Of a stretch of 64,000 bases of DNA, positions 10,298 through 62,956 are shown one piece after another. Each line of letters opens with the position of its first letter. Positions within the stretch are counted from its first letter, which is position 1. The stretch spans positions 1 to 64,000 of the forward strand of contig NZ_JAMXST010000005.1 of the NCBI RefSeq assembly GCF_024124905.1. Direction: 5' to 3'. The notes under the pieces are model-generated. The model saw only the letters and a program-made list of their open reading frames with translations. It had not been told where the DNA came from and made no database searches. A program made the position numbers and the translations under genes. The DNA is from Cellulosimicrobium cellulans. Its GTDB lineage: Bacteria; Actinomycetota; Actinomycetes; Actinomycetales; Cellulomonadaceae.

Positions 10298-11941
10298 ATG
10301 GGTGTCGACCAGACCAATCCTGCTCCACCGCCGGGCACGACGGCGGCGCTCGCCTGGGAGGCGCTGCTCGACCTGGGGACGGGGCCGGGGTCGCGCGTCG
10401 AGCGGCTCGAGCGCGCGGTCCGCGACGCCGTGCACACCGGCCGTGTCCCGGTCGGGGCGGCGCTGCCGCCGAGCCGCCAGCTCGCCGAGTCGCTCGGGGT
10501 GTCGCGGTGGGTCGTCACGGAGGCGTACGGCCAGCTCGTCGCCGAGGGCTTCCTCGAGGCGCGCGCCGGCTCCGCGACCCGCGTCTCCGCCGCAGCCGGC
10601 GCCCGATCGACGAGCCCGAGGGGAACGAGTGCGCTGGGCGAGCGGCCCACGAGCCCGGCGGGAACGACGGCGCGCGCGGGTCGTGGCGGGCCTGGCGGGA
10701 GCCGCGAGGACCGAGCGGCGGATGGTAGACCCGCGCGCGCCGTCGTGGACGCCGGTCGGACCGACACCGGCAGGACCCACGCCGCGCGCGCCCGGTTCGA
10801 CCTCGCACCCGGCGTACCCGACCTGCGCCACGTCCCGCGCGACGCGTGGCTGCGGGCGGCGCGCGACGCGCTCGGTTCCTCGACCGGTACCGCGTCGAAC
10901 GACGACCTCGGCCAGCCCGCCCCTGCCGGGCACCCGCACGCGCGCGCCGTCGTCGCCGGCCACCTGCGCCGGGCGCGCGTCGTCTCCGGGCCGGACGACG
11001 CCGTCGTGCTCACGCGCGGCGCGACCGACGGGATGGCGCGCGTCGCCGCGGCGCTCGTCGAGGCGGGCCACACGCACGTCCTGGTGGAGGACCCGAGCTG
11101 GTCGGTCCTGCGCGACGTCGCGGCACGGGCCGGCCTCACGCCCGTCCCGGTCCCCGTGGACGACGCGGGCGCGGACGTCGACGCGCTCGTCGCGGCGTCG
11201 CGACGGACCGGGGCGCGCGCGGCGCTGCTCACGCCCGCGCACCAGTTCCCCACCGGCGCCGCGCTGGCGCCCGAGCGGCGCGAGGCGGTGCTCACGTGGG
11301 CCCGCACCGTCGACGCCCTCGTGATCGAGGACGACTACGACGCCGAGTTCCGCTACGACCGCCGGCCCGTCGCCGCGCTCCAGCAGCTCGACCCCGACCG
11401 CGTCGTGCTGCTCGGCTCGGTGAGCAAGACGATGAGCCCCGCGTTCGGCGTCGGGTGGATGGTCGTGCCCGCCCGCTGGCGCGAGTCCGTCGCGCGCGCG
11501 GTGACCCCGCACGGCCCGACGGCGGCCCCGTCCACGGTCGACCAGCTCACGTTCGCGCGCCTCGTCGCGTCCGGCGGCTACGACCGGCACCTGCGCGCCG
11601 CGCGCGGGCGCTACCGCCGCCGTCGCGACGCCGTGCTCGACGCCCTCGCCCGGGAGCTGCCCGGCGCCGCGGTGAGCGGCATCGCTGCGGGGATGCACGC
11701 GCTGCTCTCCCTGCCGGGCTCGCCGGACGACCCCGCGCCCGACGCCGCTCACGTCGTGCGCGAGGCCGCGCGGCGCGAGGTGACCGTCGTCGACCTGCGC
11801 CGCTACCAGGTGCGCCCCGCCGAGCGGTCGACGACCCTCGTGCTCGGGTACGGGAACCTCGCCGACGCCCGCGTCGACGAGGCCGTCGCCCGGCTCGCCG
11901 ACGCGGTGCGTGCCGCTACTCGTCGTGGGACAGGAGGCTGA
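10298..11941 (+). CDS. MocR/PdxR-type PLP-dependent transcriptional regulator
   Basis: This 547-residue chimera has a GntR-type winged HTH (about 35-95, LPPSRQLAESLGVSRWVVTE) joined to a fold-type I aminotransferase-like domain (about 165-540). The PLP lysine is K377 in GSVSKTMSP. Family members sense PLP or amines and control neighbouring metabolic genes, here probably the divergent aldo/keto reductase. The linker between domains is unusually long (about 70 residues) and repeat-rich. It contains an in-frame copy of the conserved-loop palindrome. The ATG at 10298 lies eight bases after a TATGGT -10 box, suggesting a leaderless mRNA. The last 26 bases overlap the convergent oleate hydratase gene. 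Confidence 0.88.
   Translation: MGVDQTNPAPPPGTTAALAWEALLDLGTGPGSRVERLERAVRDAVHTGRVPVGAALPPSRQLAESLGVSRWVVTEAYGQLVAEGFLEARAGSATRVSAAAGARSTSPRGTSALGERPTSPAGTTARAGRGGPGGSREDRAADGRPARAVVDAGRTDTGRTHAARARFDLAPGVPDLRHVPRDAWLRAARDALGSSTGTASNDDLGQPAPAGHPHARAVVAGHLRRARVVSGPDDAVVLTRGATDGMARVAAALVEAGHTHVLVEDPSWSVLRDVAARAGLTPVPVPVDDAGADVDALVAASRRTGARAALLTPAHQFPTGAALAPERREAVLTWARTVDALVIEDDYDAEFRYDRRPVAALQQLDPDRVVLLGSVSKTMSPAFGVGWMVVPARWRESVARAVTPHGPTAAPSTVDQLTFARLVASGGYDRHLRAARGRYRRRRDAVLDALARELPGAAVSGIAAGMHALLSLPGSPDDPAPDAAHVVREAARREVTVVDLRRYQVRPAERSTTLVLGYGNLADARVDEAVARLADAVRAATRRGTGG
10664..10746. repeat. Conserved-loop palindrome, copy C, inside the MocR linker
   Basis: Perfect 19-bp arms (10664-10682 and 10728-10746) enclose a 45-nt loop. 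The loop differs at one base from the loop of the copy at 62784. The arms are unrelated to those of the other copies except for the closing GTC/GAC. Just upstream, two related 20-bp direct repeats (10610 and 10649) add to a repeat-rich linker. It encodes residues about 123-150 of the regulator. Confidence 0.85.
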
Positions 11942-17506: not shown

Positions 17507-17572
17507 GTCGCGATTGTCGCACCCTCGCGCCCGAACCCCCGGAACCGTCCGCCCCCTGGCAGCCGCCCTGCC

Positions 17573-17740
17573 GAGGTAGAGCCCTGGTCGGTCGAGGTAG
17601 AGGCGTGGTCCGCCGACCTCGGGCCCTGGTCCGCCGAGGTAGAGGCGTGGTCCGCCGACGAAGAGGCGTGGTATGCCGACGTAAGTGTCCGGTCCGCCGA
17701 CAGAGATGCCTGGTCGGGCGCGACGGCGCGTGGTCACCCG
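17573..17740 (+). repeat. Array of 21-bp tandem repeats, forward orientation (7-8 units)
   Basis: Contiguous 21-bp units start at 17573, 17594, 17615, 17636, 17657, 17678 and 17699, and a decayed one at 17720. The consensus begins GAGGTAGAG and ends TGGTCCGCC. There are no spacers. Twenty-one bases equal seven codons, so all frames stay open and read as heptad peptides, which inflates ORFs here. The array lies just upstream of the FAD/Fe-S oxidoreductase start and faces the array at 18021. Confidence 0.9.
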
Positions 17741-17891: not shown

Positions 17892-17995
17892 GGTCGGGGT
17901 GGGTGGTGGTGCCGCGTCGTGGTCGGGCCTGGCGGGAGCGACGCGAGGAACGAGCGGCGCGGATGGTAGACGCGGCACCACCACCCACCCCGACC
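17892..17995. repeat. Conserved-loop palindrome, copy A
   Basis: Perfect 27-bp arms (17892-17918 and 17969-17995) flank a 50-nt loop. The loop aligns with the 45-nt loop of the other two copies, with three small insertions. The copy at 62784 also shares the stem and both flanks, including CCACACG and CGTCG on the right. The two 21-bp arrays lie on either side. This locus fills the 620-bp gap between the oxidoreductase start and the YhgE stop; no gene is supported there. Confidence 0.88.
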
Positions 17996-18020: not shown

Positions 18021-18125
18021 ACATGACCACGGCTCTACCGCGCGTGACTACGGCTCTACCTCGCCCAACCAGGGCTCTACCTCGGCGGACCAGGGCTCTA
18101 CCTCGGCGGACCGGGGCGCGGTCTC
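18021..18125 (-). repeat. Array of 21-bp tandem repeats, inverted orientation (5 units)
   Basis: Units start at 18021, 18042, 18063, 18084 and 18105; the last is decayed. They are the reverse complement of the units at 17573-17740 (ending GGCTCTACCTC on the plus strand). The array stops six bases short of the YhgE stop codon. A single unit of the same kind occurs at 62912 beside copy B, again next to a minus-strand stop codon. Confidence 0.9.
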
Positions 18126-23003: not shown

Positions 23004-23086
23004 GCGCGCCCGCGCGCCGAGCACGACATGAGGGTCGCTATCCCACGGATAGCGACCCTCATGTCGTGCTCGGCGCGCGGGCGCGC
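23004..23086. terminator. 40-bp perfect palindrome between convergent genes
   Basis: Arms 23004-23043 and 23047-23086 are exact reverse complements, 40 bp each, with a three-base loop. The outer part is GC-rich and the inner part (GAGCACGACATGAGGGTCGC) is less so. It lies 14 bp after the epimerase stop and six bp from the OsmC stop. It should terminate both and block read-through. The GCCGAGCACGACATGA core recurs at 39693-39779. Confidence 0.85.
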
Positions 23087-61175: not shown

Positions 61176-62206
61176 TGACGACGACGCTGCCCGAGCCCAC
61201 GGGCCTCGCCCTCACGGCCGGTGCCGACCGTGCCCTCCCCGCCCCCGCACGCGGCGGGCTGGACCTGCACGCCCGCGCGCAGGGCACCGGCGCACCCCGG
61301 TTCGACCCCCGCGTCCTGCGCTCCCGCTGGGTCCAGGTCGGCGTGGGCGACCCCGACGCGACGGCCCGCGCCGCCGAGCACGGCGTCGACTTCGCCGCCG
61401 CCGGCGACCGGGTCTGGGAGACCGACGCGCACGTCTACCTCCCGGTGACCGCCACGCGGCGCGACGGCGACCGGGTCGTCTACGAGCGGATCGTGCTCGC
61501 ACTCTCCCCCGACGTCGTCGTGACCGCCCAGCCGCAGCGCCACTACGGCGTCTTCGACAAGGCGATCGCGCGCATGCGGCGCACCCCGTGGCTCACCGGA
61601 TCCTCCTACGGGGTGGCGTACGCGCTGCTCTACGCGCTCAACGAGGCGGCGGACCGCGTCGTGTCGTACGCGAGCGACCTGCTCGAGGACATGTCCGACG
61701 AGATCGACGAGGCGACGCGCGGCGTCGACTCCCGCGGTCGGGAGATCGGGGTGAGCGACATGCAGGACACCATCACCCGCATGAACCGCGCGGAGGAGAT
61801 CGTGTCTCGCGCCCAGGAGTCCCAGCTCTCGCTCGCGCGCGCCGCACGGCACCTGCGCAGCGAGATCGCCGACTCCGACCCCGTGCTCGCCGGGCTCGTG
61901 GAGACCCTGGTCGCCGACATCGACGGGGTGAAGCAGCACGCGAGCTTCGAGCACGACAAGGTGCGGTACCTCCAGCAGGCGATCATGACCTCGCTCGACG
62001 TCAAGCAAGCCCAGATCGTCAAGGTCTTCACGATCATCACGGCCGTGTTCCTGCCGCCGACGCTCATCGCGTCGTTCTACGGCATGAACTTCACGCACAT
62101 GCCCGAGCTCGACCGTCCCTACGGCTTCACGCTCACCGTCCTGCTCACCCTCGTGGCAGCCGTCATCCCGCTCGCCTACATCAAGCGCCGCGGCTGGCTC
62201 CGCTGA
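61175..62206 (+). CDS. corA: CorA family magnesium/cobalt transporter
   Basis: This 343-residue protein is a CorA-type ion channel subunit that would pass magnesium or cobalt across the membrane as a pentamer. The N-terminal alpha/beta cytoplasmic domain and the long stalk helix (about 160-280, including RAQESQLSLARAARHLRSEI) lead to two membrane helices. The first ends with the selectivity motif YGMNF (GMN at 303-305), followed by a short outer loop and a second helix ending in KRRGWLR. The start at 61175 is set by GGAGG and by coupling to the small upstream protein. Confidence 0.93.
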   Translation: MTTTLPEPTGLALTAGADRALPAPARGGLDLHARAQGTGAPRFDPRVLRSRWVQVGVGDPDATARAAEHGVDFAAAGDRVWETDAHVYLPVTATRRDGDRVVYERIVLALSPDVVVTAQPQRHYGVFDKAIARMRRTPWLTGSSYGVAYALLYALNEAADRVVSYASDLLEDMSDEIDEATRGVDSRGREIGVSDMQDTITRMNRAEEIVSRAQESQLSLARAARHLRSEIADSDPVLAGLVETLVADIDGVKQHASFEHDKVRYLQQAIMTSLDVKQAQIVKVFTIITAVFLPPTLIASFYGMNFTHMPELDRPYGFTLTVLLTLVAAVIPLAYIKRRGWLR

Positions 62207-62270
62207 CCCCGACGGCGCGCGCTCGCGTCTGGTCGGCGAACCGGGCCCGCGACGCGCGGTCGGTCTCCAG

Positions 62271-62299
62271 CCCGCGGGCTCGGGCCTCGAGCCCGCGGG
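62271..62299 (+). terminator. Terminator after corA
   Basis: Perfect 12-bp stem (CCCGCGGGCTCG and complement), five-base loop, about 65 bp beyond the corA stop. The gap from 62300 to 62956 holds no gene; it carries the repeats listed next. Confidence 0.65.
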
Positions 62300-62621
62300 G
62301 TCGGGTCCGCGGCGCGGGTGGCCTCGGTGCTCGGGGCTGCGGCGCCGTCACCCTGGCCTGTCGGGCGTGGGTTCTCGGAGCGCCGCTCTGACGCCCCTTC
62401 GCATCCGAGCCCACCCCCACCGCTCTTCCATCAGCCCACCCACGGCCCGCCGCCCGGCCGACCAGGCCGTCCTCGCAAGCCGAACAGGCGACCACGGCTC
62501 GTCAGGCACCCCCCGACGATCCACAACCACCTGCTCGACGTGACGTCGCCACGACTCGACGCGACATCGCGACGACCAGCCCGTCCGACGGTGACGCGAC
62601 CCACGGCCCCGGCGCAGGGCA

Positions 62622-62677
62622 CCGGGAGCCGGGAGCCGGGAGCCGGGAGCCGGGAGCCGGGAGCCGGGAGCCGGGAG
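62622..62677. repeat. 7-bp tandem repeat (8 copies of CCGGGAG)
   Basis: Eight exact copies in a row, with no coding role. Copy number is likely to vary between strains. Confidence 0.9.
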
Positions 62678-62783
62678 CGACCGTGCCACGCCGGCGACCG
62701 AAGGGGACAGCGGGAACATGCTCGGTGAACCGACACCGCGGGCAGTCGCCCGAGGTGGGCGGAGACCGGGGCGAGACGACGCC

Positions 62784-62882
62784 GGGCGGGGTGGGTGGTG
62801 GTGCAGCGTCGTGGCGGGCCTGGCGGGAGCCGCGAGGAACGAGCGGCGGATGGTAGACGCGGCACCACCACCCACCCCGCCC
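62784..62882. repeat. Conserved-loop palindrome, copy B
   Basis: Arms of 27 bp (62784-62810 and 62856-62882) pair with one mismatch. The 45-nt loop (62811-62855) matches copy C at 44 of 45 positions. The stem matches copy A, except that a T-A pair there is G-C here. Flanks also resemble copy A, on the left (GAGACGA) and on the right (CCACACG, then CGTCG). Confidence 0.88.
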
Positions 62883-62911
62883 ACCCAACCCAGCCACACG
62901 TCGTCGAACAC

Positions 62912-62932
62912 CAAGAACCACGGCTCTACCTC
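62912..62932 (-). repeat. Single 21-bp repeat unit beside copy B
   Basis: CCACGGCTCTACCTC matches the units of the array at 18021-18125. It lies 30 bp from the palindrome (26 bp in copy A) and 25 bp from the dtd stop codon. Confidence 0.7.
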
Positions 62933-62956
62933 GCGCGATGCGCTCCGGGACGTGCG

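Follow-up and report, generated by a model that had tools for sequence, protein, structure and literature searches.

A dispersed hairpin family in Cellulosimicrobium and related actinobacteria with a conserved core and stems that vary under pairing

The genome of Cellulosimicrobium cellulans carries about 35 dispersed copies of a hairpin whose interior is conserved and whose stems are rewritten from copy to copy while remaining complementary. The arms covary, mismatches within them are lopsided on the plus strand, though not where host genes run in the direction of the element, the distribution among genomes is wide and patchy, and element-free alleles occur. Such compensated rewriting suggests preservation of a folded single strand, either DNA or RNA. 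Our preferred reading, which we hold tentatively, is that of a single-strand DNA hairpin element that is recognized by its structure and is, or once was, mobile.

Three copies lie in the window, that is, the whole stretch of 64,000 nucleotides that was analyzed (Table 1). A first-pass annotation had reported hairpins at 17892, 62784, and 10664, and both their positions and their described properties were borne out. The arms enclose a core of 50 nt in the copy at 17892-17995 and of 45 nt in the other two. The two shorter cores differ at a single base (AAC/ACC), while the first is 5 bases longer, and the proposed replacement of a T-A stem pair (17894/17993) by G-C (62786/62880) is present. What had been described as a 45-nt loop does contain near-invariant parts, but alignments resolve it into an asymmetric internal loop and an inner hairpin instead of a single loop. 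Perfect arms of at least 19 bp around a spacer of 30 to 70 nt were found four times in the window, and none of 30 first-order Markov resamples contained any. The fourth place, at 23004, holds a hairpin of another kind, with a 40-bp stem and a 3-nt loop. That hairpin (23004-23086) is perfect, occupies the short spacer of two convergent genes, and is probably a bidirectional terminator with no relation to the dispersed family.

Table 1. Coordinates of the hairpin copies and of a related hairpin in the window
Feature	Positions	Strand	Description
Copy 1, outer stem, 5' arm	17892-17918	+	27 bp, perfect
Copy 1, conserved internal loop, 5' strand	17919-17937	+	GTGGTCGGGCCTGGCGGGA
Copy 1, inner stem, 5' side	17938-17944	+	GCGACGC, one mismatch; varies among copies
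Copy 1, apical loop	17945-17953	+	9 nt, GAGGAACGA
Copy 1, inner stem, 3' side	17954-17960	+	GCGGCGC
Copy 1, conserved internal loop, 3' strand	17961-17968	+	GGATGGTA
Copy 1, outer stem, 3' arm	17969-17995	+
Copy 2	10664-10746	+	Perfect 19-bp outer stem; in linker of GntR/aminotransferase (MocR-type) gene 10298-11941, sense
Copy 3	62784-62882	+	27-bp outer stem with one mismatch; spacer of two convergent genes
Type II related hairpin	62307-62425	-	Base GATGCGAAGGGG...CCCCGAGCACC; in the spacer of copy 3; arms partly decayed; ends placed by eye

On the plus strand, the general fold recovered from alignments consists of an outer stem, an asymmetric internal loop, a short inner stem, and the apical loop GAGGAACGA. 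The strands of the internal loop align as GTGG(T)CGGGYCTGGCGGGA and GGATGGTA, with a consensus of 5'-(G/C/A)TGG(N)NGGGNCTGGCGGGA / GGATGGTA-3' whose final letters differ among genomes. In the outer stem, sequence is free and pairing is kept; the inner stem is likewise variable yet complementary, with 56 distinct sequence pairs, mostly of 4 to 7 bp and several with one mismatch. At 80% arm identity, the 150 outer stems form 53 clusters, 41 of which are 25 to 32 bp long and the largest of which holds 52 stems. The 5' arm is rich in G (510 G-C versus 184 C-G pairs), and inspection by eye revealed recurrent GGA/GCA-like and GAA/GA internal loops within stems. One subtype, found in copies from HrpA linkers and in Actinomyces, has a GAA/GA internal loop at its base (GCGAAGGGC...GCCCGAGC), and another has an extra arm following CTGG. 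A type II hairpin combines the common base with a different core and was traced to the shared base only. Loops kept without complementary flanks, which the earlier account would have counted against itself, were encountered to a degree: 17 of 167 distinct elements scored as stemless, a count affected by scoring that treats subtypes with a basal internal loop badly, and some orthologs have decayed. As a separate observation, an extra arm of the form CGAGGGA-stem-GTAGTGAGCTTGCGAACG-stem-GATCCCGACCGAGAACAC occupies a single fixed position within the core in L065, L080, L087, L109, L252, and L266, and its presence or absence differs between species at the same locus.

When the source genome was queried with the 104-base copy at 17892, 35 places and a weak one were returned; one pattern parsed 34 copies, and a more permissive pattern parsed 35. 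Twenty-two of the 35 copies are a young subfamily that shares one outer stem and extra flanking sequence at different sites. A pattern scan of named genomes matched at least 107 stretches, and among the matches listed were Cellulosimicrobium, Luteimicrobium, Actinomyces, records labeled Sphaerisporangium cinnabarinum ATCC 31213 (suspected to be mislabeled Cellulosimicrobium), and one match in Planctomycetota (L110) that its sequence marks as due to chance. With a covariance model, matches were obtained in at least 21 of 297 genomes and 12 of 95 genera of the order, the source genome included. A broader model yielded at least 8 of 394 genomes in the class, five of them outside the order and with their cores inspected, and at least 2 of 396 in the phylum, both within the source order; all of these counts are floors, as at most 12 to 16 candidates were scored per genome under strict filters. 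The one match in viral contigs (L039) proved to be due to chance, on a phage contig without the remaining core, and a 121-base query found no copy in plasmids and phages. No Rfam family scored above its gathering threshold in the window; a search of four loci gave five weak matches, all far under gathering scores, and a search of seven loci gave none at E ≤ 1. The literature search returned no account of the family, and the core-string matches listed include none on bacterial repeats by title. The earlier statement that no described family has these properties is consistent with the Rfam and literature searched. With regard to assembly, five matches in genome G030 start within four bases of a contig start and two loci (L206 and L209) lie at N-gaps, positions at which copies are easily missed in draft genomes. 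The apparent double copies at these two G074 loci were discounted, L209 at least looking like one element split by assembly.

Covariation was assessed with 25 representatives that have dissimilar arms, chosen from 58 distinct standard-register rows and not corrected for kinship. Pairing was found in 94.9% of 548 cells, compared to 65.0 ± 1.4 after shuffling. Likewise, two-sided change affected 135 cells (39.1 when shuffled) and the covariation score was 0.676 (0.154 when shuffled), and for all three measures none of 500 shuffles reached the observed value. The number of pairs with two-sided change was 19 versus 15.1, reached by 1 of 500 shuffles. When the partner was slid by 1 to 3 columns, pairing fell to 34 to 48%. 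The proposal of an RNA or hairpin DNA under selection is thereby supported in part: it is the structure-held component that stands, on the strength of this covariation, compensatory changes among orthologs, and a mismatch asymmetry that points to a single strand.

The mismatches bear on which strand is constrained. If constraint acted on duplex DNA alone, G.T should equal A.C and G.G should equal C.C on a given strand. Instead, from position 10 onward, 127 stems contain 58 G.T versus 19 A.C, 30 G.G versus 6 C.C, and 48 G.A versus 4 C.T. In a stricter tally, confined to the interior of intact helix and counted once per cluster and position, the figures were 32 versus 16 for G.T and A.C (P = 0.03), 13 versus 0 for G.G and C.C (P = 0.0002), and 9 versus 3 for G.A and C.T (P = 0.15); with only positions 10 and beyond, G.T and A.C stood at 23 versus 12 (P = 0.09). 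Beside the core (positions 0 to 5), the asymmetry is reversed, with 2 G.T and 29 A.C, which we would attribute to subtypes differing in register. By context, the ratio of G.T to A.C was 14:7 at antisense loci (P = 0.19), 13:5 at convergent loci (P = 0.10), and 6:5 at sense loci, none of which is significant alone; the asymmetry is nil where host genes run in the same direction as the element. Because the plus-strand signature appears without need of host transcription, it favors single-strand DNA recognized by structure, with RNA close behind.

Under our preferred reading, the copies would form a family of small, scattered elements whose defining feature is how the plus strand folds. This strand would fold as single-stranded DNA where the lagging strand or repair leaves it exposed, and a protein would recognize it by structure, somewhat as happens with attC sites or the ends of IS200/IS605 elements. 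Such recognition would have spread the copies and would still constrain them. Three of these steps we infer: the identity of the molecule as DNA and not RNA, its binding by a protein, and the present or past mobility of the element. Several observations weigh against a single-strand DNA element. No transposase is tied to the family, the unit of about 100 bases has no gene of its own, plasmids and phages yielded no copy, and transposition was not directly observed. Furthermore, tolerance of G.U suits RNA no less than DNA. In the source genome, Y1_Tnp (PF01797) and reverse transcriptase (PF00078) had no matches, while 5 and 3 of 14 control genomes, respectively, were positive; a REP/RAYT system and retroposition were set aside on these grounds.

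Genomic context, which for the source genome is based on our own codon-usage gene calls, is diverse. Among the 35 copies there, 12 are between convergent genes, 14 between codirectional genes (8 antisense and 6 sense), 2 between divergent genes, 1 at a contig end, and 6 in open reading frames (2 sense and 4 antisense). Across all loci, orthologs included, the corresponding numbers are 60 convergent, 50 antisense and 22 sense, 4 divergent, 4 at locus edges, and 37 in open reading frames (21 sense and 16 antisense). Copies occupy the 3' spacers of genes and the linkers of proteins, in both orientations, and those in coding sequence have no bias to the sense direction. The six host proteins in the source genome are a biotin carboxylase, an HrpA-type DUF3418 protein, UvrD/PcrA, LigD, an RNase H/AAA protein that we take to be RecB-like, and the GntR-aminotransferase. 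By our own coordinates, five of these insertions fall between Pfam domains, and the one in HrpA falls inside the DUF3418 model. No tie to a single neighbor gene emerged at 18 loci, which adjoin diverse housekeeping genes (named by eye). Two low-copy elements, L239 and L247, were placed by eye in an apparent dnaA-dnaN spacer and between rsmG-like and parA-like genes, near the replication origin, which may be coincidence. In the biotin carboxylase gene (L027), the 5' arm side appears by eye in about three tandem repeats within the linker, as if half-elements had been duplicated by slippage.

The main rival, which we regard as somewhat unlikely, is a candidate structured RNA made from the plus strand, either ribozyme-like or protein-binding. 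Covariation, G.U intermediates, and the recurrent internal loops in stems speak for it, and in each of the three window copies predicted RNA stability is greater for the plus strand than for the minus strand. In RNAalifold, the outer stem is retained and bases of the internal loop pair with bases of the apical loop, replacing the inner stem; taken together, the two pairings may amount to a pseudoknot (CGGGNCU with AGGAACG), which the core data neither prove nor exclude. In 147 cores, the first base of its putative 5' strand is C, or T in 29 such that U.G is kept, or A in 1, and the U.G counts in favor of RNA. The sixth base is changed from C to T in 3 cores and one G is changed. Yet most of the proposed pseudoknot does not vary, and 15 of the cores have an unpaired purine at its middle position. 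Against RNA also stand the absence of any orientation to host transcription (6 sense and 8 antisense at codirectional loci in the source genome; 22 and 50 at all loci), the diversity of neighbors at the 18 loci, and the lack of an Rfam relative. A broader proposal, possible though doubtful, is that the family represents a new actinobacterial class of modular structured nucleic acid. It would be a platform with exchangeable modules (type I core, type I core with extra arm, and type II core on the common GCGAAGGG/CCCGAGC base) and a pseudoknot between apical and internal loops, its folded strand being recognized by a conserved protein at tens of chromosomal sites.

Comparison of orthologous loci showed how the stems change in place. 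Twelve of 13 planned comparisons ran, and these share sequences and are not independent. The six that were in register yielded 21 double Watson-Crick changes and 2 other doubles, along with single changes to G.T (13) and to A.C (1). The remaining six were left out of this tally owing to shifted register (three HrpA pairs), an indel (L028/L124), or decayed distal ends (two MocR pairs), and contained 6 double Watson-Crick changes, 1 G.T, 2 A.C, 23 other single changes, and 9 other doubles. Orthologous stems change mainly via compensatory steps and G.T intermediates. Since most loci were retrieved by exact core match, which inflates core conservation, in-place conservation was judged on three ortholog sets fetched by their flanks. 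At the UvrD locus, 13 of 17 copies, the source genome included, are intact with 0 to 2 core changes, although three of these (L331, L334, and L337) have fewer than 19 of 20 Watson-Crick pairs; two are decayed (L338 and L339, the latter with a core that scores 2 changes yet a broken 3' strand and arms), one is partly deleted, and one is absent. At the RecB-like locus, 7 of 16, again with the source genome, are intact with 0 to 1 core changes, the other nine being absent or remnants; a seventeenth genome gave no orthologous place. At the MocR locus (window copy 10664), the element is found in nine other genomes, six with 0 to 2 core changes and three decayed, and is absent or a trace only in G300, G301, G310, and G312. 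Relative to coding flanks, with the source copy as reference, the MocR core is about equally conserved in three orthologs, less conserved in two, and more conserved in two.

Alleles without the element are informative about its history. In G301 (L354), the hairpin is missing exactly, with neither arm left; the allele reads GGACGCA|CCCGGGCC, and the similar allele of G300 (L349) holds the whole hairpin between GCA repeats. As regards a target-site duplication, GCA stands on both sides of the hairpin in G300 and once in G301, but this looks like loss. In G302, one arm is kept, while the core and the 3' arm are gone between GAGG repeats. Because the whole element is present in more diverged species, the best interpretation of this allele is that the stretch between those repeats was deleted later. 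The RecB-like element is found in more diverged species, so that clean absences, judged without a tree, look more like losses than like empty targets. The copy at 62784 lies in a spacer that, between matched flanks, measures 750 bases in the source genome and 478 to 830 in five other element-bearing genomes, compared to 13 in G308 and 26 in G311.

Such losses between short repeats (GAGG in G302 and GCA in G301), together with the decay of three of nine MocR orthologs, would suit ordinary palindromic repeats in decay, with template switching during replication maintaining the complementarity of the arms and no selection on the fold. Passages of PMC8794818 indicate that template switching can produce both perfect stems and compensatory changes. 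We consider this explanation unlikely. Under it, G.T should not exceed A.C, nor G.G exceed C.C, and it leaves unexplained both the narrow range of stem lengths and the near identity of cores in 13 of 17 UvrD and 7 of 16 RecB-like orthologs. Least probable is a small mobile element that copies its terminal inverted repeats from the DNA around its insertion site, the alternative raised in the first-pass annotation, or else an element that inserts into the tips of existing hairpins: distal stems do differ among copies with the same core (for example, G074 loci among L197-L210) and G302 has one arm without core or second arm, but 22 of the 35 source-genome copies bring one stem to different places, the G301 allele holds neither arm, and G302 is best taken as deleted later.

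The family can be set beside several known systems. In integron attC sites, one folded strand is recognized by structure and stem sequence is variable. The hairpin family would resemble them in its single folded strand and variable stem, and differs in that no cassette structure was seen. MITEs are defined by terminal inverted repeats common to a family. In the hairpin family, it is the middle that stays constant, and the terminal repeats differ: the 53 clusters have less than 80% arm identity to each other, though one holds 52 of the 150 stems. Nevertheless, passages of PMC10969869 describe MITE-like repeats (ERIC, RPE, and others) as dispersed units of about 100 to 150 bp located in spacers, with RPE also in-frame in open reading frames, and the hairpin family is like them in size, dispersal, and placement. 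As portrayed in parts of PMC3733652, REP/RAYT palindromes of the GTAG and CGTC superfamilies have stems of 5 to 13 bp, one end of which bears a GTAG or CGTC tag, and are akin to our family in being multicopy palindromic repeats with some intragenic units. By contrast, our stems are mostly 25 to 32 bp (41 of 53 clusters) and free in sequence, the interior is conserved, the letters at the core ends differ among genomes, and the source genome has no Y1 transposase. Finally, STAXI, as introduced in sections of PMC2864571, is a candidate structured RNA motif from comparative genomics that lies near DNA-manipulation genes and whose identity as RNA or single-stranded DNA was left open. The same question arises here, whereas the hairpin family has diverse neighbors at 18 loci and high copy number.

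The palindromic repeats compared above are grouped by their stems or ends, whereas this family keeps its interior while the stem drifts under pairing. It constitutes a rich natural data set for weighing selection on a single-strand fold against template-switch repair of hairpins. If our preferred reading is true, it would point to a factor reading the folded strand at dozens of places, among them linkers in the repair genes for UvrD and LigD.

The surroundings of the window copies contain further repeats. Units of about 21 bp (ACCACGGCTCTACCTCG...) form inverted arrays that flank the hairpin at 17892, at 17572-17650 (minus strand) and 18026-18104 (plus strand). One such unit adjoins the hairpin at 62784, at position 62917 on the plus strand, and units are also common beside other young copies. 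The 750-base convergent spacer at 62206-62956 is composed mostly of repeats, comprising type I and type II hairpins and GGGAGCC tandem units.
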